DNA of 64,000 bases from Halosimplex salinum (GTDB taxonomy: Archaea > Halobacteriota > Halobacteria > Halobacteriales > Haloarculaceae). A program made the position numbers and the translations under genes. The DNA lies in NCBI RefSeq assembly GCF_003730195.1, contig NZ_QWGG01000002.1, positions 496,001 to 560,000 of the forward strand, in the 5' to 3' direction. Position 1 is the stretch's first letter. Each line of letters opens with the position of its first letter. The notes under the pieces are model-generated. The model was not told where the DNA came from and did not search any database. It saw nothing but the letters and a program-made list of their open reading frames with translations. Below are positions 25,919-63,937 of this stretch, piece by piece.

Positions 25919-26158
25919 AACAGCGTGAAAGCCCCGACGCGTTCGACTACTGCGACTCGCTGCGCTCCTCACTCCGTTGCGGTGCTTGCGTCGCCTCGTA
26001 CGTCGAACGCGTCGCCCCTTTCATTCCCGCCCACACAGACTGCCCGAACAGCCGACACGGGTGGGAATGAAAGGGGGCGGGCCGCTTCGGGAAGCACGGC
26101 GCCGCAACCACGCGCACCAAGCCGCGTGACCGAAGCAGGCCGGGGCTTTCACGCTGTT
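25919..26158. repeat. nested long palindrome, family 2 copy C
   Basis: Outer arms aacagcgtgaaagcccc (25919-25935) and its exact complement (26142-26158) enclose a 12-bp stem (25936-25947 with 26002-26013), a stem based on cccctttcattccc (26015-26028 with 26063-26076), and an imperfect stem in the 3' third. The loop after the second stem keeps acagactg and cagccga in both copies. It occupies most of the 400-base gap between the methyltransferase 3' end and coxS start. No ORF is credible here. Confidence 0.85.
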
Positions 26159-26193
26159 TGTGGTGCTTCTGATGACCGCCCCTCCTCCTGGCA

Positions 26194-26940
26194 CTACTCC
26201 CGCGCCCGCAAGATTCCCACGTAGTCGCCGCCGGCGTCGGTTAACTCCTCGTCGGGTTCGATCGCCTCGACGAATTCCCAGGGCGTCTCCGCCGCGAGTT
26301 CGGCCATCGTGTCGGGGGCGGCCATGAGGTAGTCGAACCACGGCGTCGCGTACACCTCGTAGCGCACCCGGATGCGGAGCGCGCCGGGGAGCCGACCGCG
26401 CTCTCGATTCGTCTCGTGGTAGGAGAGGTGATGTTCGTCGTCGGTCGCCGTCGGGTCGCGGCTCTGCCCGACGAGCGTCGCGTCCGCCGTCGCCACCTCC
26501 GCCAGCGCGCGCAACCGCTCGGGCGCCGTCTCCGCTGTCCCGACCAGCCCGAAGTTGTTGCCCATCATGAGGATCGTGTCGAACGTGCCGGGGTCGAACG
26601 CCTCGGCCACGTCGGCGACGTCCACCTCGCGTACGTCCTCGACGCCGCGGTCGCGGGCGACCTCGATGGCCCCCGGCGACACGTCGATGCCGGTCACGTC
26701 GTGGCCCCGTTCCTGCAGGTACAGCGCGTGCGAGCCCGGGCCACAGCCCACGTCGAGGACGCGCCCCTCCACGCGGTCCATCGCCCGCGTGACGAACGCC
26801 GGCCACTCTTCCGGGTCGGCGAAGTAGTTCGCCGCAGCGGCCGGACCGATCCAGCCGTCGTCGCGCTCGATCACCTCTGCGACATCGTCGCCCGCGTACT
26901 GATCCCTGATCACGGCACCGTAGGCGTCCGACTCGTCCAT
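26194..26940 (-). CDS. SAM-dependent class I methyltransferase
   Basis: A 248-residue Rossmann-fold methyltransferase with motif I VLDVGCGPGSHAL (about 61-73), an acidic loop-2 residue in GIDVSPGAIE, and motif FDTILMMGNNFGLVG. There is no membrane or extra domain. The substrate is unknown. The ATG at 26940 gives MDESDAYGAVIRDQY; longer readings run into the divergent creatininase promoter. Confidence 0.85.
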   Translation of the reverse strand: MDESDAYGAVIRDQYAGDDVAEVIERDDGWIGPAAAANYFADPEEWPAFVTRAMDRVEGRVLDVGCGPGSHALYLQERGHDVTGIDVSPGAIEVARDRGVEDVREVDVADVAEAFDPGTFDTILMMGNNFGLVGTAETAPERLRALAEVATADATLVGQSRDPTATDDEHHLSYHETNRERGRLPGALRIRVRYEVYATPWFDYLMAAPDTMAELAAETPWEFVEAIEPDEELTDAGGDYVGILRARE

Positions 26941-27041
26941 GGGATCGGGTCTGCGCGCTCCGAGATGAGTTGCGGGGATGGTGTGTCGTGTGGTACCGTC
27001 TCTTGGGAAACAGTAAGGTCGGGCCAGTCCCGTATCCGGGT

Positions 27042-27815
27042 ATGTACCTCGCAGACCGGACGTGGCCCGAACTGGGCGAGTACTTCGCCGAGGAGTCGCT
27101 GGCGCTGGTCCCACTGGGATCGACCGAACAGCACGGCCCGCACCTCCCCGAATCGACGGACCACCGCATCGCGCAGGCGCTCGCCCGCGACGCCGCCGAG
27201 AGGACGGGCTTTCTCTGCACGCCCACCATCAACGTCGGCGTCAGTCCCCACCACCGGCAGTTCCACGGCACGATGTGGGTCGAGCCCGGCGTCTTCCGCG
27301 ACTACGTCGAGTCGCTCACCCGCAATCTCACCTACCACGGCATCGACCGCGTGGTCTTCGTCAACGCCCACGGCGGCAACGTCCAGCACCTCCGCGAAGT
27401 GGGCCGGCGCCTCCGCGACGACGGCGACGCCTACGCCATCGAGTGGATGTGGGACGAGTCCATCCCCGACCTCGTCGACGACCTCTTCGAACACAACGGC
27501 CCCCACGGCGGCCCCAAGGAGACCGCGATGATGCTCCACATCGCCGACGAACTCGTCCGCGAGGACCAGTTCGAGGCGGCCCGCGACGACGGCATCCGGA
27601 GCTTCGAGGACTACGAGGGCGCCCGCCAGTTCGGCGCGCGCACCTTCTACGACGCCATCGACAACACCGAGAGCGGCGTCATCGGCGACCAGACCGACGC
27701 GACTCGGGAGAAGGGCGCCCAGTTGTTCGAAGCCGCCAGCGACCAGTTAGTTCGGTTGGCGGAGTGGCTCGACGACCAGCCCTACGACGACTTGATGCCG
27801 CGAGACCACGTCTGA
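27042..27815 (+). CDS. creatininase-family amidohydrolase
   Basis: A 257-residue metal-dependent amidohydrolase. Metal-binding motifs are LVPLGSTEQHGPHLPESTDH (about 21-40), NAHGGN (about 107-112) and the Glu of GPHGGPKETAMML. The family includes creatinine amidohydrolase, FAPy deformylases (ArfB) and MftE-type peptidases, so the substrate remains open; the haloarchaeal genomic role is not known to me. The last eight codons are echoed 1.8 kb downstream at 29587-29612. Confidence 0.85.
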   Translation: MYLADRTWPELGEYFAEESLALVPLGSTEQHGPHLPESTDHRIAQALARDAAERTGFLCTPTINVGVSPHHRQFHGTMWVEPGVFRDYVESLTRNLTYHGIDRVVFVNAHGGNVQHLREVGRRLRDDGDAYAIEWMWDESIPDLVDDLFEHNGPHGGPKETAMMLHIADELVREDQFEAARDDGIRSFEDYEGARQFGARTFYDAIDNTESGVIGDQTDATREKGAQLFEAASDQLVRLAEWLDDQPYDDLMPRDHV

Positions 27816-27948
27816 TTCGGCTTCCCGGGTTTTGCCGGCGTGTCCACGCGCACGTTGACGGGAAATGTGCAGTCTCGATGTCTATTGTGTCCGGATATCT
27901 CGATTTTGGGACCGATCTAATATGTATCCAGAACTCGAACTCTCGGCT

Positions 27949-28320
27949 ATGAGTGACTCAGATCCCCTTGCTAACTGCGAGTTCGAAATCAATAGTTTCG
28001 AAATCTTTCCTCCCTCTACGGGCGAATCGATGGCATTCTTTCTGCCAGACAATGGGGCTATTCTGATATCCGGAGTTTTCGTCGGCGGTCCATCGAATCG
28101 CACTATTTCTCTTGACGAGGTCGTAGCCGACGACGATGAAGTATCGGTCAGGATTCGAGAAGTCGACGATGCGGACTCCGATCAGTTCGTCATGGGCGCA
28201 GACCGCCCCATCTCGTACAGTGTACGTCTGGAGTTCACTCCAGCTATCCCGAACGAAGTGGTCATCACGCATACCTCCGATGGAGAACGGACACTCGAAA
28301 GGCGGATACTTAATCGCTAG
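27949..28320 (+). CDS. hypothetical protein of the island
   Basis: A 123-residue acidic protein, probably mostly beta-strand (alternating hydrophobic pattern through EFEINSFEIFPPSTGESMAF and SYSVRLEFTPAIPNEVVITH), with no signal peptide, membrane segment or motif that I recognise. ATG at 27949 is preferred over 27922 because a TATA-like taatatg lies about 28 bases upstream of it. Codon use is less GC-rich than its neighbours, in keeping with acquisition by transfer. The protease gene ends 16 bases beyond it on the other strand. Confidence 0.5.
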   Translation: MSDSDPLANCEFEINSFEIFPPSTGESMAFFLPDNGAILISGVFVGGPSNRTISLDEVVADDDEVSVRIREVDDADSDQFVMGADRPISYSVRLEFTPAIPNEVVITHTSDGERTLERRILNR

Positions 28321-28336
28321 AACTGGCCGATGGCAG

Positions 28337-29463
28337 CTAATAGAATTCGATATTGTATGAATCTTTCATCTTCCAGGCAGGGGTGCTGTAACCCTGCGAC
28401 GCGATATTCTGATCCTGACAGTTCTGTTCGTCCATCTCATCGTTTTCGTAGTGTCCACTGTAAATGGAAATAGCCGAGACATCGCCGATATCAAGAGAGC
28501 TCTCGGCGTAGATCGGACCGCCGGAGTCGCCACCACATACGTTACAAGTGGTTAACACCCCGTCGTCAAATACGTCAACACAATTCTTATCGTTACTGTA
28601 ACTCTCATTTATACCCAGTATCTGTCCTTTCGTCGTGCCTGTCCCGACACCCGTCTGCCAGACTGTTTCATCGGTGTCCATAAGATCCTTAATCCCGCTT
28701 CGGGTGAAGTTCGACGCCTGCTCTGGGTAGTCGTCACCGGGGAAGCCACCGCTCGTTTCATCGATGTACTCACTAGAAGAGATGCTATCTTTCACATCAA
28801 TGAGCGCCCAGTCCCACAGGTCACGGTATCTATCACAGTTTCCGACCTTGTTGTTGTCTACGTCGTAGATAGGTAACCCTGAACCATCACAGTTGTAATC
28901 TGATGTCAACACATGGTTCGCAGTTAAACAATATTCGGACCCGTCCCAGTCTACAATCCATCCTGATGAACCGGTACCGCCACTGCCATACAAGAGTTCT
29001 CCCGGGTTTATTACGGAGATTGGGTCGTTATTATAACAGCCACGATCTGCATCAAGGACGAACTCACCGCGCTGCGAAGCCGTCTCGATTGGAACACCAT
29101 CGATTGACTCCGGGATGTTTGATTTCGATTTATCTTTCAGAAAGACCTTGATCTTATTCGTTCGATGCCCATTTATTCGGTTCTCCGTTCTTCGAATCCC
29201 CATCCCTGTAACGTTCTCGTCGGTACCATGCCTCTCGCTAGTGGTATCGTAAACCCTGTCTACCGTTTCTTCATATCGGTGCCACTCCCTCGGTACCTCT
29301 TTTGTCGCGTCTTGTTTGTTTTCTGGTGCTTTCTCGACTACAATTTCGACGGTATCGTCGCCGCTATAGCTACTTTCATCCCATTGAGCCCTACAAATCC
29401 GGCACCCGTGGCGTGTAGTACAGTACGTCGATTTACGTTTCGATTGATTGAGTCGTCGTCCAT
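28337..29463 (-). pseudogene. Tat-exported trypsin-like serine protease, frameshifted
   Basis: The long intact part (28337 to an ATG at 29203, 288 residues) has the chymotrypsin-fold triad: His in CLTANHVL, Asp in WDWALIDV and Ser in CGGDSGGPIY, plus paired cysteines fitting an extracellular enzyme. Upstream, ATG at 29463 encodes MDDDSINRNVNRRTVLHATG, a Tat signal, but that frame stops after GLNGMKVAIAATIPSKL. A different frame (WDESSYSGDDTVEIVVEK) joins the protease frame without a stop. So a single shift near 29375-29395 separates signal and enzyme. Either a pseudogene, a sequencing error, or a truncated intracellular form starting at 29203. Confidence 0.65.
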
Positions 29464-29657
29464 ATGTGGTTTCGACTTAGATGTACTCTGGTCATGATTT
29501 GTACTTAATTGCAATATTCAAATACGAATAGTGATAAAATAATTACATATTCACGCTCACCTGGAGCAAAGACACGGGGTTAGCGGACCTGATGCCCCGA
29601 AAACACGTCTGAACCCAAGTGGAAAGTCATTCGTGGACCGGTCACGAACGCACGCGT

Positions 29658-29957
29658 ATGAGCGACGACACCTTCGAGAGCGAACTGCGCGACGCGTTCG
29701 AGGACAAGTTCGGTGCCGACGGCGACACCGCCGCGGCGGCCGCCGAGAAGGCCACGGCCTTCCGCGAGGACTACGACGAGCACCTGACCGCGCAGGACGT
29801 GTTCGACCGACTCGAGAGCCGTGAGGGCGAGTTCGAACACCGCTACGACTTCGCCATCGGCGACCTGGCCGCTGCGACCGAAGACTGTACCGACTCCCGC
29901 GAGTACCGGCTGGCCGGCTTCGACGAGAAGGCCGCTGACCCGGACGTGGGTTCCTGA
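29658..29957 (+). CDS. conserved haloarchaeal hypothetical protein
   Basis: A 99-residue acidic, helical protein: MSDDTFESELRDAFEDKFG, then AAAAAEKATAFREDYDEHLT and ending FAIGDLAAATEDCTDSREYRLAGFDEKAA. No domain recognised, but the high-GC codon use and acidity agree with an old chromosomal gene outside the island. It converges on tRNA-Arg, with a hairpin followed by T6 (about 30052-30074) and a bidirectional element between. Confidence 0.6.
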   Translation: MSDDTFESELRDAFEDKFGADGDTAAAAAEKATAFREDYDEHLTAQDVFDRLESREGEFEHRYDFAIGDLAAATEDCTDSREYRLAGFDEKAADPDVGS

Positions 29958-30076
29958 GATTTCAGCCGATCGTTCGTTTCACGTTCGTCGGTGTCGCGGA
30001 CCAGAACGCGGTCGTCGAGCATCCGCCGAGCGGAGCGAGGCGGTTCACCGGCCGCGAGGCGGCCGGCTTTTTTGCC

Positions 30077-30146
30077 CCATCTTTTTGCGTCGGGGGTGCC
30101 CGCAGGGAGCGAAGCGACCGAGGACACCCCCGGCGGAAAAAGGTGG
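30077..30146. terminator. bidirectional T-tract/hairpin/A-tract element
   Basis: A 70-base near-palindrome: ccatctttttgcg, then cgggggtg pairing with cacccccg, and cggaaaaaggtgg at the far side. It lies between the convergent 29658 gene and tRNA-Arg, so each transcript would end in a GC hairpin and a T5 run. The same layout occurs at 16017, 35823 and 51705. Confidence 0.65.
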
Positions 30147-30148
30147 AC

Positions 30149-30222
30149 GGGCACGGTGGGATTCGAACCCACGACCGTCGGATTAGAAGTCCGACGCTCT
30201 ATCCGGACTGAGCTACGTGCCC
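30149..30222 (-). tRNA. tRNA-Arg (anticodon UCU)
   Basis: 74 bases folding as a full cloverleaf: acceptor GGGCACG/CGTGCCC, D arm with AGCTCAGTCCGGATAGAGC, anticodon stem TCGGA/TCCGA with loop CTTCTAA (anticodon TCT), and T arm with GGTTCGAATCC. CCA is not encoded and no intron is seen. It reads AGA codons, which are rare in this GC-rich genome. Confidence 0.97.
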
Positions 30223-30310
30223 TCGTCTGAGAGTGAAAGGGCGCGCGTAAAAAGCGGCGTGGGTTCTCCCCGACCGATCACACTTGCTACTCCACGCCGA
30301 ACGATCACAC

Positions 30311-31300
30311 ATGCCCCGAATCGGTCTGACGGGGGACGTGATGCTGGGGCGGCTGGTCGACGAACGCTACAGCGAGCCGGGAACCGCCGCGACGGACGTC
30401 TGGGGGAATCTACTCGACCGCCTCGGTGACCTCGACGGCCTGCTGATCAACCTCGAATGCGCGATTTCCACGAGAGGCCGGCGCTGGAAGCGAACGCGTC
30501 GACCGTTCCACTTCCGGGCGACGCCGGACTGGGCGACCGACGCGCTGGCCGCCGCCGGCGTCGACTTCGCCTGCCTCGCCAACAACCACCTGCTGGACTT
30601 CGAGGAGCCCGCGCTGCTGGATACGCTCGACCACCTCGACGCGATCGACGTCGCTCACGCCGGCGCGGGCGAGACCGTCGCCGACGCCCGCGAACCCGCA
30701 GAGTTCACCGTCGACGGCCTCGATATCGCGGTGATCGCCGCGACGGACAACACGCCCGAGTACGCGGCCGGGCCGGACAGTCCGGGGGTGTGCCACCTCG
30801 ATTTCGACCCCGGCGACGAGGTGACCCAGGCCGCTATCGAGGGGATGGTCGACGACGCCCGCGCGCTGAAGCCGGACCTGCTGGTCGCGTCGGTCCACGG
30901 CGGGCCGAACATGGAGACCGAGCCGGCCGACACGCTCCGGGAGTTCCACCGCTGGCTCGCCGGGCGTGTCGACCTCGTCCACGGCCACAGCGCCCACGTG
31001 TTCCAGGGGGTCGAGGTGGTCGACGGGACGCCCGTGCTCCACGACTGCGGCGACTTCGTCGACGACTACCGGGTTGACGGCGAACTCCGGAACGACCGGA
31101 GCTTCCTGTTCGTCGCCGACGCCAACGAGTCGGGCGTCGACTCTCTCCGCCTCGAACCGACGGAGATCAGCGACCGGGCGGTCCACGCGGCCGAGGGGTC
31201 GGTCGCGGCGTGGAGTCGAGAACGGATGCGCGAACGGTCGGAGCGCTACGGCACCCGCTTCGAGCGCGACGGTGAGGCGCTAGTGCTGGACGTGGCTTGA
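30311..31300 (+). CDS. CapA-family metallophosphatase-like protein
   Basis: A 329-residue protein of the PGA_cap (CapA) family: N-terminal GLTGDVMLGR, NLECAIS, ANNHLLDF (the NH metal motif), HAGAGETVADAREP, and the C-terminal VASVHGGPNM, VHGHSAH, YDCGDF-like HDCGDFVDDY. CapA takes part in poly-gamma-glutamate export or synthesis in bacteria; this copy lacks a signal peptide or membrane anchor, so it is likely cytosolic and may act on another substrate. ATG at 30311 begins the conserved region. Confidence 0.85.
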   Translation: MPRIGLTGDVMLGRLVDERYSEPGTAATDVWGNLLDRLGDLDGLLINLECAISTRGRRWKRTRRPFHFRATPDWATDALAAAGVDFACLANNHLLDFEEPALLDTLDHLDAIDVAHAGAGETVADAREPAEFTVDGLDIAVIAATDNTPEYAAGPDSPGVCHLDFDPGDEVTQAAIEGMVDDARALKPDLLVASVHGGPNMETEPADTLREFHRWLAGRVDLVHGHSAHVFQGVEVVDGTPVLHDCGDFVDDYRVDGELRNDRSFLFVADANESGVDSLRLEPTEISDRAVHAAEGSVAAWSRERMRERSERYGTRFERDGEALVLDVA

Positions 31301-31360
31301 GCAGTGTGAGACGACACGACAACCGTCCCTCTTTTGGTCGCCGGGCGTTCAGAGCCACCA

Positions 31361-32641
31361 ATGAGCGCACACCTGGACCTGGCCGAGCCCGAGCCCGCGG
31401 TCGCGACCGACGGCGTCTGGCTCACCTGCATCGAGTGCGGCGAGACGTTCGCGCCGTTCGACGCGATCCGGTACACCTGCGACGACTGCGACGGCCTCCT
31501 CGAAGTCCGCTACGCCGACCTCCCCACGTGGGACGACTTCGGCGGCGCGAGCACGCCCGAGAGCGGCCCCTACGGCGTCTGGCGATACGCCGCGGCCCTG
31601 CCCTTCGAGGAGGGCGTCTCCCTCCCCGAGGGCGGCACGCCGCTCCACTACGTCCCCGACCTCGAAGAGGAGACCGGTGTCAACACCCTCCGCGTGAAGC
31701 ACGAGGGGATGAACCCCACCGGCTCGTTCAAGGACCGCGGGATGACCGTCGGCGTCCGCGTCGCGAAGGAGGTCGGCGTCGACCGCCTCGCCTGCGCGTC
31801 GACCGGGAACACCAGCGCCGCGCTGGCCGCCTACGGCGCCCGCGGCGGCATGCAGACGCTCGTGCTCCTCCCCGCCGGGAAGGTCGCCGCCGGGAAGGTC
31901 GCGCAGGCCAGCCTCCACGGCGCACGCATCCTCGAAGTCGACGGCAACTTCGACTCCTGTCTCGACATCGTCCAGGACCTGGCCGCCCGCGGCGAGGCGT
32001 ACCTCCTCAACTCCCTCAACCCCTTCCGCCTCGAAGGCCAGAAGACCATCGGCCTCGAGATCATGGAGCGCTTCCACGCCGACGAAGGTCGCTATCCCGA
32101 CCGGATCGTCCTGCCGGTCGGTAACGCCGGCAACACCGCCGCGCTGTACAAGTGCTTCCGAGAACTCCGGGAGGTCGGCGCTATCGACGAGGACGAGGTG
32201 CCCAAACTCACCGGTGTGCAGGCCGAGGGCTCCGCGCCGATGGTCGAGGCCATCCGCGAGGGCAACGACGAGGTCCGCCGCTGGGACGAGGTCGAGACCC
32301 GCGCGACCGCCATCCGCATCGGCAACCCGGTCAACGCCCCGAAGGCCCTGCCCGGCATCCGCGAGACGGGCGGCACCGCCGTCGCCGTCTCCGACGAACA
32401 GATCACCGACGCCCAGCGCTCGCTCGCCGAGGAGGGCGTCGGCGTCGAACCCGCCTCCGCCGCCTCCATCGCCGGTCTCCGCAAACTCCGCGAGTCCGGC
32501 GAAATCGACGCCGACGAGGACGTCGTCTGTCTCACCACGGGCCACCTGCTCAAAGACCCCAACGCGGCCTACGAGGCAGGGAGCGAGCCCGAACCCGTCC
32601 CCAACGACACCGAAGCCGTCCTCGACCACCTGAGCGAGTAA
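31361..32641 (+). CDS. thrC: threonine synthase
   Basis: A 426-residue PLP enzyme. An N-terminal zinc-ribbon-like segment (CIECGETF...CDDCDG) precedes the catalytic domain with the PLP lysine in NPTGSFKDRG, the phosphate-binding STGNTSAALAAYGARGG and GNAGNTAALYKCF. It makes threonine from O-phosphohomoserine. GVEPASAASIAG in the C-terminal third is typical for ThrC. ATG at 31361 starts MSAHLDLAEP. The terminal 40 residues are a less conserved acidic tail. Confidence 0.93.
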   Translation: MSAHLDLAEPEPAVATDGVWLTCIECGETFAPFDAIRYTCDDCDGLLEVRYADLPTWDDFGGASTPESGPYGVWRYAAALPFEEGVSLPEGGTPLHYVPDLEEETGVNTLRVKHEGMNPTGSFKDRGMTVGVRVAKEVGVDRLACASTGNTSAALAAYGARGGMQTLVLLPAGKVAAGKVAQASLHGARILEVDGNFDSCLDIVQDLAARGEAYLLNSLNPFRLEGQKTIGLEIMERFHADEGRYPDRIVLPVGNAGNTAALYKCFRELREVGAIDEDEVPKLTGVQAEGSAPMVEAIREGNDEVRRWDEVETRATAIRIGNPVNAPKALPGIRETGGTAVAVSDEQITDAQRSLAEEGVGVEPASAASIAGLRKLRESGEIDADEDVVCLTTGHLLKDPNAAYEAGSEPEPVPNDTEAVLDHLSE

Positions 32642-32680
32642 CGCCGATTCGGCCGGCGAATCTGTTTCGACTCACCGTTC

Positions 32681-32959
32681 TTCGTTCTGGCGCGCGCTGT
32701 CGCGCGCTTTCATGCGCGCGACGGAGCCGTGCGAGGGATGAGCGAAGGAGCGGAGCGACTGAGCGAATCGGCTGGGGAGGCGTGAGGCTGTTTGCGGTGC
32801 GATGTGGGTCGCTGTGTTCCTGGAGGACTGAAAGGGCGAGGCGCGCTCGCGGTGAACGCAGTGAACGGAGGCGCCTGAGTAGGCACTATTCGAGGGAGCG
32901 AAGCGAGCGAGAATATCCTACTCAGCGCCCGCGAGCGGGTCGAGGGCTTTCAACGCTTG
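32681..32959. repeat. structured intergenic element, family 1 copy B
   Basis: About 279 bases aligned to 22901-23163. Its first hairpin is gtcgcgcgc (32699-32707) with gcgcgcgac (32714-32722); the second is ctgagtagg (32875-32883) with cctactcag (32917-32925) and inner tattc/gaata. Each stem differs from copy A at paired positions. It fills most of the 436-base gap between the convergent thrC and HTH genes; the rest of the gap shows no gene. Confidence 0.8.
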
Positions 32960-33077
32960 CCGCCGAGTGCGGTAGAACTGTCTGAGAGTGAGCGGGTCGA
33001 AAGCGGTCAGCACAAGCTGTCGAGTACGGTCGAGAATGTAACAGAGATACCCAGACACCAGGACCAGACCCACCAGA

Positions 33078-33467
33078 TCAGAGGTCTTCTTCGCCGAACT
33101 CGTCGATGCGGTCGTGGACGTACGCGGTCCACTCGTCGAGGGTGTCGTGCATCAACTCGCGGGCCTCGGGAAGCGGTGTCGCGGAGTACTGGTAGACGTG
33201 GCCGCCGCCGTCGAGCAACCGCCGTTCCCGTCCGGCCAGCCCTTTCTCTCGGAGGGTGGACAGCGACCGGTTGACGTTACTGCGGTCGCGCTCTAGCTGG
33301 TCGGCCAGCTCGGCGACCGTGCTGCCGGGGAACTCCTGGAGTGTCAGGAACGTCCTGACCTCGTGTTCCTGGATGTTGAAGACGCAGGCGAGCACGTCCT
33401 CGAAACCGGGCTCCTCGTCGAGCATCAGTTCGCGAAAGCGCTGGGGCGAAGGGTCCGCCTCGACCAT
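33078..33467 (-). CDS. winged-helix transcriptional regulator (TrmB/MarR-like)
   Basis: A 129-residue protein with a winged helix: LACVFNIQEHEVRTFLTLQE, STVAELADQLERDRSNVNRSL (recognition helix), STLREKGLAGRERRLLDGGGHVYQYSA (wing). This is the compact haloarchaeal form of TrmB/MarR-type regulators with no effector domain. A TATA-like TGTTTAAGCG (33494-33505) lies upstream; ATG at 33467 and an in-frame GTG at 33479 are both possible, ATG preferred. Target genes unknown. Confidence 0.8.
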   Translation of the reverse strand: MVEADPSPQRFRELMLDEEPGFEDVLACVFNIQEHEVRTFLTLQEFPGSTVAELADQLERDRSNVNRSLSTLREKGLAGRERRLLDGGGHVYQYSATPLPEARELMHDTLDEWTAYVHDRIDEFGEEDL

Positions 33468-33549
33468 AGTATCCGACACTTGCGGCCCCCGACGCTTAAA
33501 CAGGCATGTTACCCACGCCTCACCCGAGATCCGTCGACCGATCCGTCAC

Positions 33550-33783
33550 CTACGTTCCGTAGCCCTGGTTCTGCAGGCAGGTCCGCATCTCCGACTCGGA
33601 GTCGTGTTTGTGGAGGCGCGTGGGCGTGTCGCAGTAGAAGGTGGTGCCGTCCCACCGGAGCGTCACCTCGTGCTCGGCGTCGAGGAACTCCGTGCGGACG
33701 CGGACTCGCCCCTCCGATTTGATCCGGGCGAGGAGGGCGTCGGCGTCCATCTCGCCGGCGTCGACGACTGGCAGGTCGGTCAT
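33550..33783 (-). CDS. small conserved haloarchaeal protein
   Basis: A 77-residue protein with a beta-rich core (VRVRTEFLDAEHEVTLRWDGTTFYCDTPTRLHKH) and a C-terminal helix with MRTCLQNQGYGT. It has the look of a small single-domain protein widespread in haloarchaea, but I cannot name it. Start at ATG 33783 rather than the preceding GTG. Confidence 0.6.
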   Translation of the reverse strand: MTDLPVVDAGEMDADALLARIKSEGRVRVRTEFLDAEHEVTLRWDGTTFYCDTPTRLHKHDSESEMRTCLQNQGYGT

Positions 33784-51773: not shown

Positions 51774-51774
51774 T

Positions 51775-55785: not shown

Positions 55786-56883
55786 ATGCACAGACGACGC
55801 TTCCTCGCCGCGGGAGCTACCGCGGCGTCGGTGGGGCTGGCCGGGTGTCGGTCGCTGTTCCAGACGCGCTCGGCGCGCTCCCCGCCGCTGGTCGAGGACC
55901 GCCCGGACGCCGTCTACGTCCCCAGCCACGTCGAAGGGATGGAGATGGTCGACACCGCCGAGGCGGGCGACTACACGGTCGCGCTCACCTACAGCTTCCC
56001 CCACCGGTTCTGGCTGGTCAACGGCGACCGGACGAATCAGGTCGAGATCGAGGGGAGCGACTCCGTCCACCTCATGACGACCGTCTGGGACACCGACACC
56101 GGGACGGTGATCCCCACCGACGGCATCAGGACGACGATCACGAGCGACGGCGAGACGCTGGTCAGCGGCGAACCGCTCTGGCCGATGCTCTCCCAGAACA
56201 TGGGCGTCCACACCGGCGACAACCTCGAACTCGACGGCGACGGCACCTACGAGGTCGAGGTGGACGTCCCGCCCCTCTCGGCGCGCCGGACGGGCGGCTT
56301 CCGCGACCGCTTCGACGAGCAGGTCACCGCCGACTTCTCGCTGGCGTTCGCCCAGTCGACGCTCGACGAGATATCCTTCGAACGGCTCCAGGACCGGCAG
56401 GGGGAGCGCGACGCCCTCGATCCGATGGAGATGGACATGCTCCCGGTGTCGACGGCGCCCGCCGTCGAGGACCTGCCCGGCACCGTCGTCGGTGAGGGGT
56501 CGAGCGGCGACGCCCGCTTCGTCGCGACGCGACTGGACTCGCCGCCCGCGGGCGCCGGTGGTGAGTCGACGGACGAGGGCGGCGATTCGAGCGACGAGCG
56601 CCCGTACCTCGCTGTCTCGATGCGGACGCCGTACAACGGCTACCCGCTCCCGCTGGCCGCGCTGTCGGCGACGGTCGCTCGCGACGGGGAGACCGTCTTC
56701 GACGGGCCGCTCGGCGCGACCGTCGACCCGGACATCGGCTATCACTACGGCGCGCTCGCGGACGTACAGTCGGGAGACGAACTGGCGATCACGGTCGACA
56801 CGCCGCCGCAGGTCTCCCGTCACGAGGGCTACGAGACGGCGTTCCTCGACTTCGCCGAGACGTCGATGACCGTCGAGAAGTGA
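55786..56883 (+). CDS. iron-transport-like lipoprotein (p19/DUF7350 type)
   Basis: 365 residues from ATG 55786 (an ATG at 55768 would add six). The Tat signal HRRRFLAAGATAASVGLAGC ends in a lipobox Cys. Two beta-sandwich domains follow; YTVALTYSFPHRFWLVNGDRTNQVEI and PSHVEGMEMVDTAEAG resemble the Fe(II) p19-like family with a Met/His-rich metal site (EGMEM, QNMGVH, MEMDML). I recall DUF7350 as the haloarchaeal family. With the preceding gene it forms a metal/heme-handling pair (inference). Confidence 0.72.
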   Translation: MHRRRFLAAGATAASVGLAGCRSLFQTRSARSPPLVEDRPDAVYVPSHVEGMEMVDTAEAGDYTVALTYSFPHRFWLVNGDRTNQVEIEGSDSVHLMTTVWDTDTGTVIPTDGIRTTITSDGETLVSGEPLWPMLSQNMGVHTGDNLELDGDGTYEVEVDVPPLSARRTGGFRDRFDEQVTADFSLAFAQSTLDEISFERLQDRQGERDALDPMEMDMLPVSTAPAVEDLPGTVVGEGSSGDARFVATRLDSPPAGAGGESTDEGGDSSDERPYLAVSMRTPYNGYPLPLAALSATVARDGETVFDGPLGATVDPDIGYHYGALADVQSGDELAITVDTPPQVSRHEGYETAFLDFAETSMTVEK

Positions 56884-56928
56884 GGCGTCACGAACACCCG
56901 GATAGTAGCGTGGCACCGTAGCCCGCGC

Positions 56929-58641
56929 TCACTCGGTGCTGTCCCGGTAGAACTCCCTGAGGACGGAGAACGCCTGCTTCTTCCGGCCGTGCTGGTCGAG
57001 GAGTCCCTTCCGATTGTACCCCCGCTGATGGGGGTTCTGCCGCGAGGGTGACCTGAAGTCGAACAGGATCCACGGAGTCATCCCCGCGATCTGCTCGTTG
57101 CCGTCGATCGCGTCGGTCTGGTCCCGGTAGATGGCGGCCTGAAACTCCTCCGTCCACCGCTCGTCGGCCGGGCCGTGGTTCCCCCACTTCGCGCCGCCGC
57201 CGGTCTCGGAGACGACCACCGGCGTCCCGTCGGGGTCGTCCTGAAAGGCCCGCATGTCGTCGGCGTCGCCGTGGTACCACCCGTAGTACTCGTTGATTCC
57301 GATCACGTCGAGCGAGTCCGCCAGCGGGTCCCGGATCTCGATTCCGTCGTCGGTCTCCTCGGCGAAGCAGGCGGCGGTCACGAGTCTGCTATCGTCCAGA
57401 TCCCGGACGAACTCGACCGTCTCTGACAGCACCCGGTTCCTGGTCTCGTCGTCGTGGTCGGTCTCGTTCGCGACGGACCACAGCGCCACCGAGGGCCGGT
57501 TCCAGTCGCGCTGGATCAGCTCGCGTAGCTGTCGGTGGTACAGCTCCCGCACGTCGTCGTCACCGAAGTCGACGTCCCAGTAGGCGGGGACCTCCTCCCA
57601 GAGGAGGATGCCCTCCTCGTCGGCTCGCCGCGTCATCTCCCGGGAGTGCGGGTAGTGTGCGAGCCGCGCGAAGTTGCAGCCGAGTTCGCCGAGCCACTGG
57701 AACCGCTCGTCGACGTCGGCCGCACGGAGCGCCCGGCCCGACCCCGCCGACTCCTCGTGCAGCGAGACGCCGCGCAACCAGACGGGGTCCCCGTTCAGGA
57801 GCACGTCGCCGTCGCGCACCCGGACCTCCCGGAATCCGACCCGGTCCTCGATCGTATCGCCGCCACACTCGAGTTCGATATCGTAGAGCCGGGGGTCGGC
57901 CGGACTCCAGAGCGTGACGGCGTCCGCGTCCAGCGACAGTTCGGCGCTGTATCGGCCGTCGCCGTCGGCGGACAGCTCCGCCTCGCGGTCGAGTTCCGGG
58001 AGTCGGACCGAGACGGTCGATTCGTCGTCGGGGCCGTCGATCCACGCGGTCACCGCGACGCCGACCTGGCCGTCCGAGAGCGTCGTCTCGGCCCGGTAGT
58101 TCCGGACGAACGTCTCCGGGACCGGGACCAGCTCGACGGACCGGAACACGCCGCCGAAGTTGAACCAGTCCGTCTGCGTGTCGGGGACGCCGTCCTCGCG
58201 GCGCTCGTTGTTCGCCCGCACGACGAGCACGTTGTCGCCCGCTTCGAGCGCGTCGGTCACTTCGAACGCGAACGGCGTGTAGCCGCCCTCGTGGCTGCCC
58301 AGCAGTTCGCCGTTCAGCCAGACCGTCGCCTCGTAGTTCACCGCTCCGAACGCGAGGAAGGACCGACCGTCGTCCCCGTCGGCGGACCAGGAGAACCGCC
58401 TCGTGTGCCACATCCATCCCTCGTAGTGACGGAACTCCGGCAGCTCCTCGCCCCAGTTCGACGGGACGCGGATCGAGTACCCGTCGTCGACGTCGAAGTC
58501 CAGCCGGTCTCCTGCCGGCGCGTTCGGGAGAGCCAGCGAGTCACCGATCGGATGGTCCTCGAACACTCGATACTGGTCCGGTATCGCCTGCCACTCGCCG
58601 TCCAGCGATACCGTCTCGCGGCTGTAGTCGAACAGGTGCAC
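56929..58641 (-). CDS. glycoside hydrolase family 2 protein (beta-glucuronidase/beta-galactosidase-like)
   Basis: 570 residues. The N-terminal jelly-roll sugar-binding domain contains SLDGEWQAIPDQYR and FLAFGAVNYEATVWLNGELLGSHEGGYTPF; then an immunoglobulin-like domain and a C-terminal barrel with the acid/base Glu in VANETDHD (about 391) and the nucleophile Glu in VVSETGGG (about 478). Cytosolic, as no signal peptide is present. Starts with GTG at 58641, about 26 bases after TATA-like AACTATTAG. Substrate could be a glucuronide or galactoside. Confidence 0.88.
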   Translation of the reverse strand: MHLFDYSRETVSLDGEWQAIPDQYRVFEDHPIGDSLALPNAPAGDRLDFDVDDGYSIRVPSNWGEELPEFRHYEGWMWHTRRFSWSADGDDGRSFLAFGAVNYEATVWLNGELLGSHEGGYTPFAFEVTDALEAGDNVLVVRANNERREDGVPDTQTDWFNFGGVFRSVELVPVPETFVRNYRAETTLSDGQVGVAVTAWIDGPDDESTVSVRLPELDREAELSADGDGRYSAELSLDADAVTLWSPADPRLYDIELECGGDTIEDRVGFREVRVRDGDVLLNGDPVWLRGVSLHEESAGSGRALRAADVDERFQWLGELGCNFARLAHYPHSREMTRRADEEGILLWEEVPAYWDVDFGDDDVRELYHRQLRELIQRDWNRPSVALWSVANETDHDDETRNRVLSETVEFVRDLDDSRLVTAACFAEETDDGIEIRDPLADSLDVIGINEYYGWYHGDADDMRAFQDDPDGTPVVVSETGGGAKWGNHGPADERWTEEFQAAIYRDQTDAIDGNEQIAGMTPWILFDFRSPSRQNPHQRGYNRKGLLDQHGRKKQAFSVLREFYRDSTE

Positions 58642-58749
58642 CGCTCGAAAAGTCCGCGGAGCGCTAATAGTTGTTGCGCAGCCTCGAGACGGTCCAGCAC
58701 GGATCCGGGCCGGGCCGCTCCCGGCCGTCCGAGGGCGGAGTCAGTCGCG

Positions 58750-60249
58750 CTACTCGTTGCCCGGGAGCGACAGGCCCCGCGTCGACAGCAGGTGGTCGAC
58801 GCCGCCGACGAGGACGAAGAGGAAGCCGACGACCGTCGCGACGAGGTGGACTTCGCGGAACCAGAACGGCACCAGCGAGAACGTTCCCTGGATGCCCGCG
58901 ACCGCTTCGGTGAGCAGCGGGAACCCGCTCTCGTCGGCGCCGCCGGCGTCGCCGGTCATCTGGGGCAGGGGGGTCTTGGTCGGCGTCGCCGTGCCGTCGC
59001 CGTCGGTGGCCGTCCCGTCTCCGTCCGTCGCCGTCTCGCTGCCGTCGTCGTAGCTCCCCGAGAACTCGCCGAACGGGAGTCGGTCGGCCTCGTAGGGGAT
59101 GCCGGACCCGCTCGTGACGTGTTCGTCGACCGGGACGCTCCAGACGGCCTCGCCCTGCGGGTTCACCTCGACGACGCGCTTGTTCCGCGAGTCGGTGATC
59201 AGGGTGTTACCGTTGGGGAGGCGGTCGGCGTCGCGCGGCCAGTAGAGTTCGAGCCCGCCGGTCTCCTCGACCACCCACGCGGGCTCCCAGCTGCCGTTCT
59301 CGGCGCGGTGGAGTTCGACCACGCGGTCGTTCTCGCTGTCGGCCACGAGGACGGCGCCGTCGCCGAGCCACTGCGGGTTGTGCTGTTCCTTGATCACCGA
59401 CGGGTCGCCACAGCGCACGTCGCCGTCGCCGTCGGCGTCGACGAGGCGGTCGCCCCCTCGCAGGCAGTTCTCGTCACTCGTACCAGTGTCCTCGTTGATC
59501 GTCTCGACGACGCCCTCGCCGCGTTCGACGATGACGAGCTGGTTGGCGTTGCGCACGGAGACGAGGAAGCGGCCGTCGCCGATGGTGTCCACGTCGTTGA
59601 TGTGGAGCCAGTCGCGACTCGTCGGGTCCTCGGGCGCCTCGTAGTGGTCGCTCGCGTTCCACTCCCACGCCTCGGTGCCGTTCTCGACGACGACGACGCG
59701 CTCGGCCTCCATGTCGGTGTAGACGACGCCACCGTTCCCGGTCGCGTCCATCGCGTGGACCTCGCTGTTCGTGATAGAGCCGACGGGGAAGCTGTACTCG
59801 TCGACGATCTCGCCGGTCTCGGGGTCGAGGGTGCGATAGCCCGTGCGGGCACAGGAGTCGCCGTACTCGCCGCAGTCGGTCGAACTCTCGTTGGCGAACG
59901 CGGCCAGAACTCGGCCGTCGTCGAGCATGCTCACCTCGAAGTAGCCGTCCGCCTGCGTGTTGCGCCAGGCGACGTCCTGTCCGTCGTAGCCGAGGACGCT
60001 GCCGTGAGTCACCCAGCCGCCCTGCACGCCGACGAGCGTCTGCGGCGAGTCGGGGAGGGGCGTCGCCGTCGGCGTGGCGTCGCCGGGGTCACTCGACGCC
60101 GGCGTGCCGTCCGTTGGTTCGGGCGTCGGTGTCGAGACGTCGACGCCGCCGACGGAGCGGTCGGGGGCGGTCGCGGCGCCGACGAGCATCGTCGTGAGGA
60201 ACAGGCCGACGCCGAGCAGGATCAGGGCACTGCCGCGCGAGACGTCCAT
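58750..60249 (-). CDS. arylsulfotransferase (ASST)-like membrane-anchored protein
   Basis: 499 residues: N-terminal membrane helix (ALILLGVGLFLTTMLVGAA), a Thr/Pro linker, a beta-propeller with repeated short motifs (VLGYDGQDVAWRNTQADGY, HAMDATGNGGVVYTDMEAERVVVVENGTEAWEWNASDHYEAPEDPTSRDWLHINDVD cut into blades, ITDSRNKRVVEVNPQGEAVW) and a C-terminal helix (HLVATVVGFLFVLVGGVDHLL). The HINDV segment is typical of the ArylsulfoT family. Many members are not proven sulfotransferases. The linker near the C-terminus has GDGTATDGDGTATPT repeats. Confidence 0.75.
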   Translation of the reverse strand: MDVSRGSALILLGVGLFLTTMLVGAATAPDRSVGGVDVSTPTPEPTDGTPASSDPGDATPTATPLPDSPQTLVGVQGGWVTHGSVLGYDGQDVAWRNTQADGYFEVSMLDDGRVLAAFANESSTDCGEYGDSCARTGYRTLDPETGEIVDEYSFPVGSITNSEVHAMDATGNGGVVYTDMEAERVVVVENGTEAWEWNASDHYEAPEDPTSRDWLHINDVDTIGDGRFLVSVRNANQLVIVERGEGVVETINEDTGTSDENCLRGGDRLVDADGDGDVRCGDPSVIKEQHNPQWLGDGAVLVADSENDRVVELHRAENGSWEPAWVVEETGGLELYWPRDADRLPNGNTLITDSRNKRVVEVNPQGEAVWSVPVDEHVTSGSGIPYEADRLPFGEFSGSYDDGSETATDGDGTATDGDGTATPTKTPLPQMTGDAGGADESGFPLLTEAVAGIQGTFSLVPFWFREVHLVATVVGFLFVLVGGVDHLLSTRGLSLPGNE

Positions 60250-60311
60250 CTTGAGAGACGTGTCCGCCGCGTCGGCGAATAAGCCTTCGGGTACCGACTG
60301 TCAGAACGGCC

Positions 60312-60617
60312 TCACTCGTCGGCGTCGTAGGGCCAGTTCGGGTCGCGGGGCTCCTCCGGGTCGGGGGCGCGGGTGTTCGGCGCGGCGCCCTCGACGCAGG
60401 CGCCGTACTCGCGGACGTTCTCGCGGGCGTCGCTGAGCGTGACGTGGTTGGTGTCGCTGACGAACTCGGGGTCGCCGAACTGGATGGGGTCGTCCAGCCA
60501 GTCGCAGACGGGGCAGCGCTCGTACGATCCGGGTCGCCCCGGCGGGAGCGTCCGGTAGCCACAGCACGGACAGTAACCCAGCTCTCGCGCGGCGGGGTTG
60601 CCGGGGCGGTCCGCCAT
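60312..60617 (-). CDS. CPCC-type cysteine-rich zinc-binding protein
   Basis: A 101-residue protein with an N-terminal CPCC...CPVC module (CPCCGYRTLPPGRPGSYERC), followed by DDPIQFGDPEFVSDTNHVTLSDARENVREYGAC. This matches the CPCC cysteine-rich family (PF14206 type), which is small, probably zinc-binding and of unknown function. It ends 62 bases before the ASST-like gene and diverges from the sulfatase. Confidence 0.85.
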   Translation of the reverse strand: MADRPGNPAARELGYCPCCGYRTLPPGRPGSYERCPVCDWLDDPIQFGDPEFVSDTNHVTLSDARENVREYGACVEGAAPNTRAPDPEEPRDPNWPYDADE

Positions 60618-60722
60618 GCTCGGCCGTAGGGACGCTCCCCGGATAGCTGTGACGACGGACGCGACCCGCGACCCTGACAACCCCGCAACAATGTTTAGGG
60701 CCGCGGCGGCCGCCCGTTGGGT

Positions 60723-62384
60723 ATGCCCGGGGCCGACCGACCCAACGTCGTCTGGATCGCGATGGAAGACACGACGCCGCGTCTGGGGTGCTACGGCGAC
60801 GACCTCGCCCGAACCCCCAACATCGACGGCCTCGCGGCCGACGGCCGGCGATATCCGAACGCCTTCTCCACCGCGCCGGTGTGTGCGCCCAGTCGCGCCG
60901 CGGTGATGACCGGCTGTCACCAGAACGCCATCGGCACCCACCACATGCGGACGACCCACACCAACGAGGACGCCCCGGGACTCCCGACGCCCTACGAGGC
61001 CGTCCCGCCCCACTACGTCACCGCGGTCCCGGAACTGTTCCGACAGGAGGGGTACTACTGCACGCTCGACTCGAAGGCCGACTACCAGTTCGGTACGCCG
61101 TTCACGATGTGGGACCACCACGGCGAGGGCGCCGGCTGGTGGGACGACGCACGCGACTCCGATCAGCCCTTCTTCGCCATGTTCACCAACGGCGTCACCC
61201 ACGAGAGCGGCCAGTGGGACCCGACCGAACCCGGCACCGACGACCAGTTCGGCGGGAGCGTGGCGGAACCCGACACCGACCCCGACGCCGTCGAGGTGCC
61301 GCCCTACCTCCCCGACACCGAGGAGACACGGCTGGCTATCGCCCGGCAGTACGACAATATCGCCCGTTCGGACGAGTGGGTCGGGGACCTGCTCGACCGG
61401 CTCGACGACGCGGGGCTGGCGGAGGACACGCTCGTCGTCCTCTGGAGCGACCACGGCGAGGGACTCCCGCGGAGCAAGCGCTGGCCCTACGACGGCGGCA
61501 TCCACGTCCCCCTGATCGTCCGCTGGCCCGGCGAGGCCGACGACGGGGGCGTCGACGACCGACTCGTGAGCACGATGGACCTCGGTCCGACGACGATGGC
61601 CGCCTGTGGCCTCGACGTGCCCCAGTACGCGGGCGGTCGGCAGTTTCTCGGCCCGGACGCCACGGAGCGCGAGTACGTCTTCGCCAGTCGCGACCGCTAC
61701 GACGAGTCCTACGACATGGTCCGGGCCGTCCGCGACGACCACTTCAAGTATATCCGCCACTACCGCCCGGGGACGCCGTACCGCCAGTGGATCCCGTTCA
61801 GGAATCGCCATCCCGTGATGCGCCAGATCCTCGACCGCGCGGCCGCGGGCGAACTGGAGGGCGCCGAGCAGTGGTTCGACGCCCGCCGCCCCGCCGAGGA
61901 ACTGTACGACCTCCGCTCCGACCCCCACGAGGTCGACAACCTCGCCGGGGATCCGGAGTACGCGGATACGCTCCAGCGCTTCCGCGACGCGCTGGACGAG
62001 TGGCGCGAGCGCGTCGACGATACCGGTGACACGGCGGAGGCGGAGATGGTCTGGGAGCGCCATCGCGGCGACGAGCAACCGGAGACGGCGGCGCCGCGGT
62101 TCCTCGTCAACGCGCCGGACCACGACGAGCGCGAGGCGCTGGTCGATGGCACGACGGTCGAGGGTCCGGCGACGCTCTCGCTCTACTGTGCGACGCAGGG
62201 CGCGTCGATCGGCTACGCGCTGTCCGACGAGATGGTCGGGAACGACGGGTCCGAGCCGCGCTGGCGACTGTACACGGGACCCGTCGACCTTCCCGAGGGG
62301 GAGACCACCGTGCGCGCGAAGGCGATCCGGTACGGCTTCGAAGAGAGCGACCAGCAGGTCGGCGTGTTCACCGTCTCCGAGTGA
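60723..62384 (+). CDS. sulfatase family hydrolase
   Basis: 553 residues. N-terminal metal site NVVWIAMEDTTP, formylglycine signature C54-A-P-S-R (VCAPSRAAVMTG), and GKSD-like ...VVLWSDHGEGL. The conserved EL(Y/F)DLRSDPHEVDNLAGDPE motif of type I sulfatases lies near 400. A C-terminal 90-residue beta domain follows. There is no signal peptide, so it acts in the cytosol, or is exported by an unknown route. TATA-like aatgtttagg lies about 27 bases before ATG 60723. The GH2 enzyme and ASST-like protein upstream suggest sulfated glycan handling. Confidence 0.88.
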   Translation: MPGADRPNVVWIAMEDTTPRLGCYGDDLARTPNIDGLAADGRRYPNAFSTAPVCAPSRAAVMTGCHQNAIGTHHMRTTHTNEDAPGLPTPYEAVPPHYVTAVPELFRQEGYYCTLDSKADYQFGTPFTMWDHHGEGAGWWDDARDSDQPFFAMFTNGVTHESGQWDPTEPGTDDQFGGSVAEPDTDPDAVEVPPYLPDTEETRLAIARQYDNIARSDEWVGDLLDRLDDAGLAEDTLVVLWSDHGEGLPRSKRWPYDGGIHVPLIVRWPGEADDGGVDDRLVSTMDLGPTTMAACGLDVPQYAGGRQFLGPDATEREYVFASRDRYDESYDMVRAVRDDHFKYIRHYRPGTPYRQWIPFRNRHPVMRQILDRAAAGELEGAEQWFDARRPAEELYDLRSDPHEVDNLAGDPEYADTLQRFRDALDEWRERVDDTGDTAEAEMVWERHRGDEQPETAAPRFLVNAPDHDEREALVDGTTVEGPATLSLYCATQGASIGYALSDEMVGNDGSEPRWRLYTGPVDLPEGETTVRAKAIRYGFEESDQQVGVFTVSE

Positions 62385-62502
62385 ACCGTTTCGGAGTGAG
62401 TCGTCCCGGAGCGCCGTCGGTTCCGAGGGAACCGTCCCGGAGCGCCCCGTCAGAAAAGCTATCCGTCCGCGCGGTCAACCACGCAGTAATCGGTCGAACA
62501 GC

Positions 62503-63552
62503 ATGACAGACGATACGGACCAGCCGACGGCGGACGGGCGCTCGGGGGAGACGGAGACCGTCGGGAACCTGGTCGAGAAGATACGGGCGCTGGACGACGA
62601 CGAGGAGCGCGGGCAGGGGATCCTCCTCGATCAACTCGCCGAGGTCGAGACCCGGCTCCTGTCGTTCGGACGGGCGCTCGGCGGCGACCCGGACACGGTG
62701 GCGGATCTCCCCTTCACGGAGGAGGCGGGCACCGACAAGATGCCCGAACCGCTGTACGTCCGCCACGACACGGAGATGCTCAACCAGGTGACCGGCTGGC
62801 TCCTCCAGGAACAGCACATCGGGCTCGTCAGCCACTACGGTACCGGCAAGACCGCGTTTCGGGAGATCGTCCGCCGCGACCTGGGCGAACACGACGAGTT
62901 CGTCGTCGCCATCCTCGACAACCCCAGAGAGACCACGCCCCGGAAACTGTACGCCACGATCCAGACCACCGCCGAGGCCGCGGGCTACGAGATCGAAGAT
63001 CGTGACTACTGGCAGACCCGCGACGGCGTCCCGTGGGCCACCGAGGACGCCAAGGAGGCCGCTCGCGAACTCGTCGAGGAGGTCCGCGCCGACGGGAAGA
63101 CCATCCTGCTCGTCGTCGACGAGATAGAGGTCCTCCCCGCGGACATCCTCTCGACCCTGCAGGTCGCCGGCGACATGGGCGTCCGACTCTTCCTGATGGG
63201 CACGCCCGAGGGGAAAGAGCGCGTCGCGGACCTGCGCGGCACGCTCGACTCCCGACTGCGCTACTACGAGGAGATCGAGCCGTTCGACCCCGGGGACATC
63301 GCGGAGTACATCGCTCGCTCGTTCGCCTACTTCCGCGGCGAACCGTACGAGGACCAGCCCGTCGAACTGTTCACGGAGGACGCCATCCGGGACGTCCACC
63401 AGCGGACCGAGGGCGTCCCGCGGGAGGTCCGCATCGAGTGTCGCGAACTGTTCACGCGCGCGGCGTTCGTCTGGTACCGCACCGGCCAGGAGATCGACCG
63501 CATCCAGATCACGCCGGAGTTGCGGCATCGTCGCTTCGGGATGGGCCGCTAG
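62503..63552 (+). CDS. AAA-type ATPase
   Basis: 349 residues with Walker A SHYGTGKTA (110-118), Walker B TILLVVDEIEVL (about 203-214) and a sensor-like LFLMGTPEGKERV, followed by a helical lid (DIAEYIARSFAYFRG) and C-terminal helical domain. The layout resembles Orc1/Cdc6 or ExeA-type ATPases, but the winged helix of Orc1 is missing, so a replication initiator is not supported. No operon partner is visible. The 448 bases after it hold a structured repeat and no gene. Confidence 0.8.
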   Translation: MTDDTDQPTADGRSGETETVGNLVEKIRALDDDEERGQGILLDQLAEVETRLLSFGRALGGDPDTVADLPFTEEAGTDKMPEPLYVRHDTEMLNQVTGWLLQEQHIGLVSHYGTGKTAFREIVRRDLGEHDEFVVAILDNPRETTPRKLYATIQTTAEAAGYEIEDRDYWQTRDGVPWATEDAKEAARELVEEVRADGKTILLVVDEIEVLPADILSTLQVAGDMGVRLFLMGTPEGKERVADLRGTLDSRLRYYEEIEPFDPGDIAEYIARSFAYFRGEPYEDQPVELFTEDAIRDVHQRTEGVPREVRIECRELFTRAAFVWYRTGQEIDRIQITPELRHRRFGMGR

Positions 63553-63629
63553 CAGTCTGATTTTCGATTAGTACCAGTGGGAGTGTCGTGAACAGCACGG
63601 CGACGACCGCTGGCGTGCTCGTGACCGCG

Positions 63630-63937
63630 AACAGCGTGAAAGCCCCCGACCGCTCCGGTCCCGGGGCTCGTTGCGCGCTTCGCTCACTGCGTTCGCTGCA
63701 GTGCTTACGTCGCCCGGGTTCCCGGAGCGGTCGGCCCCTTTCATTCCCACCCGTACAGACTGGTCGGCCAGCCGAATCGGGTGGGAATGAAAGGGGCGAC
63801 GTGCTGGACGAAGGCCGGCGACGCAAGCACCGTGGTTCGAGAGAGCAAAGCCCTCTCGTCATCACGAAAGAGCGCTCTGCGCTCTTTCGGCGACAGCGAG
63901 CCGCCCGAGTCCAGCGCGTCGGGGCTTTCACGCTGTT
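63630..63937. repeat. nested long palindrome, family 2 copy D
   Basis: Same outer arms as copy C (63630-63646 and 63921-63937). The first inner stem is ccgaccgctccgg (63646-63658) with ccggagcggtcgg (63722-63734), a different sequence from copy C but also perfectly paired. The second is cccctttcattcccacc (63735-63751) with its complement (63780-63796). The 3' third adds hairpins gagagcaaagccctctc-type and gaaagagcgc-tct-gcgctctttc. It lies downstream of the ATPase; no ORF is credible. Confidence 0.85.

Follow-up and report, generated by a model that had tools for sequence, protein, structure and literature searches.

What are the two nested palindromes that stand at 25919–26158 and 63630–63937 of a 64,000-nucleotide stretch of the Halosimplex salinum genome (assembly GCF_003730195.1, contig NZ_QWGG01000002.1, forward-strand positions 496,001 to 560,000; hereafter the window), and why do they share their outer arms and loop words while an intervening stem differs in sequence and stays perfectly paired? 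A sequence-only reading of the window had proposed a candidate structured RNA or a non-autonomous mobile element, and comparison with relatives lends weight to both halves of that proposal. The two palindromes are members of one dispersed repeat family, whose insertions are polymorphic among genomes and whose structure is under strand-specific constraint. Judged from comparative sequence analysis, the window copies are probably old copies of a non-autonomous repeat resembling a miniature inverted-repeat transposable element (MITE), moved in trans, with an interior that would fold as a single strand, more probably as RNA than as single-stranded DNA (ssDNA).

Each window copy is an inverted pair of a ~105-nt hairpin unit, here called U, flanking a central hairpin, an arrangement that the sequence-only reading had not noticed. 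On the strand used by that reading, U runs through GAAAG, CCC, one side of the main stem, an inner loop with an apical hairpin, the other side of the main stem, CCC and CTTTC, with AKTCCCRCCC next. Each element's second U is an inverted version of the first, and pairing between the two TTTCATTCCC ends creates the central hairpin. Because each element is an inverted pair of one unit, the intervening stem and a third, imperfect stem that had been described separately are homologous. In copy 1 (25919–26158; outer arm, U_A, central hairpin, U_B, outer arm), the left outer arm AACAGCGTGAAAGCCCC (25919–25935, plus strand) pairs with the right arm GGGGCTTTCACGCTGTT (26142–26158, minus strand). Unit U_A occupies 25927–26032, its putative folding (sense) strand being minus according to the unit alignment and the strand test given below, and its main stem P2, GACGCGTTCGAC/GTCGAACGCGTC, is perfectly paired between 25936–25947 (the 5′ side on the plus strand) and 26002–26013. 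The central hairpin (26015–26076; arms at 26015–26032 and 26059–26076) contains the stem CCCCTTTCATTCCC/GGGAATGAAAGGGG (26015–26028/26063–26076) and the loop words ACAGACTG (26035–26042) and CAGCCGA (26049–26055), all common to both copies. Unit U_B (26059–26150), with plus as its putative sense strand, carries the imperfect stem at 26081–26090/26130–26140.

Copy 2 (63630–63937) is an inverted dimer of the same kind with a longer second unit. Its outer arms lie at 63630–63646 (plus) and 63921–63937 (minus), U_A at 63638–63752 (putative sense strand minus) with a perfectly paired P2 of different sequence, CCGACCGCTCCGG/CCGGAGCGGTCGG (63646–63658/63722–63734), and the central hairpin at 63735–63796, its stem at 63735–63748/63783–63796. 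U_B (63779–63929, putative sense strand plus) has an imperfect stem at 63798–63809/63909–63920 with one T·G wobble on the sense strand. Outer arms, central stem, loop words, divergent but perfectly paired intervening stems and imperfect third stems thus all lie where the sequence-only reading had placed them. Two motifs occur four times each in the window, the expected numbers being 0.17 (up to two mismatches) and 0.22 (up to three mismatches). Two additional hairpins (63839–63857 and 63866–63888) are inserted in the apical part of copy 2 U_B (63839–63888); similar perfect hairpins, of the GAGAGAGC..GCTCTCTC and GAAAGAGCGC..GCGCTCTTTC types, occur inside arms both there and at loci L003, L004, L005 and L045, as inserts within inserts.

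The core of U comprises a GAAAG/CTTTC closing stem, a 3×3 internal loop, a main stem of 12–13 bp, a conserved inner loop and a variable apical hairpin. The internal loop stays CCC/CCC (GGG/GGG on the other strand), and it and the inner-loop words are barely free to vary; the main stem is free to change in sequence and keeps its pairing. RNAalifold analysis of 57 units returned 27 pairs, 23 of them with two-sided changes. A statistical test of covariation, as the sequence-only reading had proposed, gave a score of 0.510 against 0.152 ± 0.009 in shuffles, with none of 500 shuffles reaching the observed value, and sliding the partners by 1–3 columns left a score of at most 0.081. Drift that breaks the stems, named beforehand together with a lack of further copies as an argument against a selected structure, was not seen: among 270 distinct units, all 12 tested main-stem positions are paired in 148 and at least 8 in 244. 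The closing stem changes on both sides, from GAAAG/CTTTC to CAAAG/CTTTG, in 18 of the 18 loci of genus g24 that were fetched from four genomes (L411–L428; G061, G067, G076, G053).

A strand selected to fold should tolerate G–U pairs, which would show as A–C on the other strand, so that an imbalance between the two would mark the strand that folds. For the 270 distinct units, the 12 main-stem pairs were counted by position, free of any alignment, leaving out the 26 units with fewer than 8 Watson–Crick pairs. On the strand used by the first reading, the 244 units counted contain 2790 Watson–Crick, 68 A–C, 22 G–T and 48 other pairs (p = 1.2e-6); the reverse strand therefore reads G–U 68 : A–C 22. 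As a control, 11 covarying pairs in 30 haloarchaeal signal recognition particle (SRP) RNAs (30 of 39 found) gave G–U 46 : A–C 12, which resembles the reverse strand of U (Fisher, p = 0.84) and departs from its forward strand (1e-11). The bias runs in the same direction in dimers (21:9), in the module-2 forms described below (10:4) and in other units (37:9), and it persists among distinct stems with the last pair excluded (50:20, p = 4e-4). RNAalifold on the reverse strand gave G–U 134 : A–C 23, a ratio attributed in large part to invariant pairs and hence not used. We infer from these counts that the constraint falls on one strand, always of the same polarity (5′ GGGYGGGAMTGAAAGGGGC-arm-GGGGCTTTC 3′); the two folding strands of a dimer both read outward from the center. 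Covariation far above both of its controls, together with a wobble bias equal to that of SRP RNA, suggests that the structure proposed from two copies is indeed under selection.

U is widespread within its class. A gapped exact pattern retrieved 12 units from the 5.07-Mb genome of the window and none for the reversed control. BLAST searches with copy 1 matched 32 of 59 genomes, its own included, at E ≤ 1e-8 and 33 plasmid records, among them Natrinema, Natribaculum and Haladaptatus, at E ≤ 1e-5. The covariance-model search for further copies, also proposed beforehand, used a model built from 57 U units; at E ≤ 0.001 it matched 336 of the 391 genomes sampled in the class, spread over 76 of 86 genera. 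A sample of 196 genomes from the phylum yielded 29 matching genomes, every one of them in the window's order and none of them marked 'same phylum'; this search served as a negative control as well. The number of candidates scored in each genome was capped at about 10 in the class-wide search and about 19 in the phylum search, and U reaches 18–19 scored matches, up to that limit of 19, in several genomes; one copy collection was gathered via the 3′ motif, and its counts are at least those listed. Consistent with the earlier remark that no known family fits, no family of Rfam 15 matches U. A relaxed-threshold Rfam search of four loci returned four matches at E 0.6–1.9, far under gathering scores, and two of these (mir-8515) fall on the central hairpin of one locus, L046. 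No published description of the family was found in a literature search. A phage or virus origin was rejected, as no phage record matched and the exact 19-base end motif was absent from the viral contigs searched.

The mobile half of the proposal is borne out by orthologous sites that are filled in some genomes and empty in others. The copy 1 site is empty in all five sister genomes that retain both flanks (30–90 bp against about 330–370 in the window; two of seven sister genomes lack the left flank and were left out). At the copy 2 site, four of seven sister genomes are empty (28–47 bp), two hold an element, and in the remaining one some 1 kb of other DNA occupies the site; in one genome of the window's genus (G007), one arm of the element carries a very different stem that is nonetheless paired. 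Target-site duplications, which the sequence-only reading had suggested looking for, were found in relatives: perfect 8-mers flank 14 of 50 elements, whereas 200 permutations gave 1.55 on average and never more than 6. Seven elements from four genera (L044, L057, L115, L127, L140, L141, L184) combine an 8-bp duplication with ends of the type found in insertion sequences (IS) of the IS6 family, and among 337 units tested, a perfect duplication with inverted ends was seen in 10 distinct elements. IS6 elements of G007 end in GGTCGTGTTTAGTTA, and the ends of dimers in relatives (GGTACTGTTTAGAT and GGTCGTGTTTAGTT, for example) are similar or identical to IS6 ends in G306, G267 and G007. Dimers of G267, near-identical to the eye, terminate in GGTACTGTTTAGAT-like words and the inverse of these. 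A 695-bp element with ends of this type carries an open reading frame for a 178-aa IS6-family transposase (NF033587, 168.8 bits).

An IS6-family transposase acting in trans would thus be the most likely mover of the dimers, the ends and duplications that point to it being those of relatives, and the same history probably applies to the window copies. These show no recognized IS6-type ends and no clean duplications; they look like old relics, too decayed to display their ends, and are not classed as IS6 MITEs on their own evidence. Among other IS6-ended elements, a 214-bp MITE (L158, G008:C1:225855-226060) contains a single U-like unit and has an 8-bp duplication, and similar end pairs of ~205 bp occur in G126 and G259. 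At two G267 loci (L137, G267:C7:1575700-1578700, and L138, G267:C7:1812700-1815700), the same 8 bp (GTCGCGAG) lie to the right of one dimer and to the left of the other, as might follow from recombination between two copies that inverted or exchanged the intervening DNA.

U also occurs outside inverted dimers. Loci picked independently of the end motif contain 134 units: 87 are matched by an inverted partner, 23 carry a second module (module-2) and 24 have neither. Both partnerless forms keep a GGGYGGG tract beside U, its six G positions being present in 20–22 of 23 module-2 units and 22–24 of 24 other single units. With the second module, U takes a long form, 5′ GGCGCGCGCUG...CGCGCGAGGGAUGAG...GGCUGGGGAGGYGUGAGGC...GGGUGGGACUGAAAGGGGC-U-GGGGCUUUC, represented by 31 copies of 202–396 nt (median 243). 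In genus g24, U has the module-2 word upstream in all 18 fetched loci; long-form copies of this genus show further conserved flanks that resemble imperfect inverted repeats. RNAalifold on the long-form alignment gave an energy of only −2.7 with none of eight pairs covarying, so that only its sequence blocks are claimed here.

Persistence of U at one site can be followed in another taxonomic family, in the gap between endA and a gene here designated P0001, where species have differing stems that nevertheless pair. Across 34 loci, comprising the best 30 of 59 matching genomes and four named loci, 12 carry U, two an arm-deleted form (L388, L396) and 20 no recognizable U; since the presence of U was the reason for choosing three of the 12, the share of 12 in 34 is not a frequency. 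Full units are present in L215, L237 and L392, where the stem begins with a near-copy of the end motif, and the U of L393 is decayed at its end. Seven stems were scored, those of L386, L387, L392, L393 and L402 falling outside scoring (inserts, a bulge, decay, or a unit not seen whole at that stage). They comprise six different sequences, paired throughout except for two G–U pairs and one mismatch, a pattern compatible with long-term retention and compensatory change, or with stems having been replaced through conversion from other copies. L388 (G211:C1) lacks exactly the arm of U between two GGGGC tracts, which leaves TGAAAGGGGCTTTC.

Why would a MITE carry a folded interior? The constraint may act on a single strand, 5′ GGGYGGGAMTGAAAGGGGC-stem...stem-GGGGCTTTC 3′, probably an RNA read outward from the center, and such a folded RNA would most likely be of use to the element itself or to a host factor binding it. 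RNA is held more probable than ssDNA because DDE transposition needs no ssDNA fold and because the G·U bias equals that of SRP RNA. A tentative extension, possible though short of an even chance, is that U constitutes the 3′ domain of an undescribed class-wide haloarchaeal structured RNA family with a longer form of ~200–400 nt, spread on IS6-type and other short mobile elements, of which the window's inverted dimers would be a condensed MITE-borne form; four conserved G-tracts (GGGYGGG, GGGG, GGGG) may then fold, under the high salt of the cytoplasm, into a quadruplex that stacks between two helices. ViennaRNA placed no G-quadruplex in the minimum-energy fold of 121 units, which is no real test given that its model is not known to span a long hairpin loop.

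Several observations weigh against an RNA-bearing, IS6-moved repeat. None of 11 elements in the window's genome has a perfect 8-bp duplication, so the duplications looked for hold in relatives and not there; IS6 is represented in that genome by just two fragments (63.8 and 44.7 bits), and searches of G002 and of G126, whose dimers are clean, turned up no IS6 gene. Two smaller alignments lack a significant strand bias (11 G–T : 21 A–C, p = 0.11; 37:47, p = 0.33), the alignment-free count being preferred to them because it is free of model-fitted alignment. G·T is the best-tolerated mispair in DNA, and the bias alone consequently cannot separate RNA from ssDNA. Upstream of the 31 long forms, a promoter search saw no clear AT peak, and orientation relative to genes is not significant (34 same, 21 opposite, p = 0.10). 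Gene conversion from other copies could replace the stems at a single locus, and the apical pairs and long-form structure are the less certain part of the fold.

The alternative that survives best, though we consider it unlikely, is an ssDNA element in which a Y1/HUH transposase (IS200/IS605 or RAYT type) recognizes the hairpin on one strand, as for PATEs and REP/REPIN, the IS6 ends being hitch-hikers or later captures. The strand bias suits an ssDNA fold as well as RNA, only 10 distinct elements combine perfect duplications with inverted ends, and 21 of 23 module-2 units have no inverted copy of the outer arm found downstream; PATEs of Haloquadratum are described in excerpts of PMC3119063 as diverse, palindrome-ended and lacking duplications. 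Against this stand the seven elements of four genera with 8-bp duplications and IS6-type inverted repeats, and the absence of U from all 30 TnpB loci fetched (of 92 PF07282 matches in 10 genomes), the Y1 transposases themselves not having been searched for. The same loci led us to reject U as a TnpB omega RNA; a module-2-like 13-mer occurs in 5 of the 30 and likewise in 5 of 30 SRP control loci, and is uninformative.

Somewhat less probable still is that no selection operates and a copying process keeps the stems perfect, either gene conversion among copies or the correction of quasi-palindromes by template switching. Such a process would account for apical hairpins that grow via inserted perfect hairpins, for the sharing of identical stems between copies (the 244 units have 194 distinct 12-mer stems) and for the exact loss of an arm between GGGGC repeats in L388. 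It would affect both strands alike and hence predicts equal G–T and A–C counts, against the 22 and 68 observed, and it leaves the conserved unpaired CCC/CCC and inner-loop bases unexplained. A cis-acting mRNA element (terminator, stabilizer or untranslated-region element) is very improbable: although none of 127 units lies inside a predicted gene and the sense strand at the P0001-endA locus is the gene strand, U-bearing gaps (52 tandem, 35 divergent, 11 convergent) are like other gaps of at least 100 bp (153, 95, 37), the orientation count given above shows no bias, and no neighboring gene family recurs. Specifically, when 1092 predicted proteins were clustered, any one family stood near U at no more than four loci, and a linked protein gene was rejected on that count; genes in these context tests were called with a simple codon-usage caller, unchecked against annotation.

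Set beside known systems, the MITE-like repeat with a single-strand fold favored here shares its outline with several and coincides with none. The haloarchaeal MITE MITEHsal2, according to the portion of PMC10264941 consulted, is 413 bp long with an 8-bp or 411 bp with a 6-bp duplication. Like U-dimers, MITEs mobilized by IS6 are short and non-coding, with inverted ends matching an autonomous IS and 8-bp duplications (in four genera for U). Unlike them, U-dimers have an interior made of one or two class-wide folded units under strand-specific constraint, and the window copies lack clean ends. No Halobacterium salinarum is found among 36 plasmid records matching a dimer, MITEHsal2 being compared by description only. 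In Haloquadratum walsbyi, the consulted excerpts of PMC3119063 describe SMR-A as an element of ~110 bp with inverted ends, many copies and no known mobilizer, its copies commonly over 95% identical and inserted in PATEs/IS605 elements, and PATEs as diverse, palindrome-ended, non-coding elements, both SMRs and PATEs being reported without duplications. U is of similar length (~105 nt) and copy-rich; it is set apart, by those descriptions, in being diverse and intergenic and in that some U-dimers have 8-bp duplications. Judged as PATEs, seven U elements differ in having inverted ends with 8-bp duplications, and most copies show neither feature.

Bacterial repeats of the REP/REPIN and ERIC types are likewise intergenic palindromic hairpin dimers in many copies, with a narrower taxonomic range; in U, by contrast, a single core with covarying stems is shared across an entire archaeal class, and its duplications are of the DDE type. 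TnpB/IscB omega RNAs are likewise a structured RNA domain on a mobile element present in many copies, and U differs in its absence from the 30 TnpB loci fetched. Twenty-two conserved intergenic RNAs of Halobacteria are listed, with no function reported, in the part of PMC7002113 consulted.

If U is an RNA, its presence in 336 of 391 sampled haloarchaeal genomes, with no Rfam match or literature description found, would make it a large unannotated RNA class in an archaeal model group; if it is an ssDNA signal, it would show that selection can act on the single-strand structure of a MITE. In both cases, U offers a testable example of a mobile repeat conserved on the inside and not at its ends alone. 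Short tandem arrays (GAACGGAGACGAAACCGC, TGCGGTTCC) abut outer arms at the left flank of L008 (C22:155600) and the right flank of L051 (G007:C11). The sole Rfam match of the window is a tRNA gene on the minus strand at 30148–30222.

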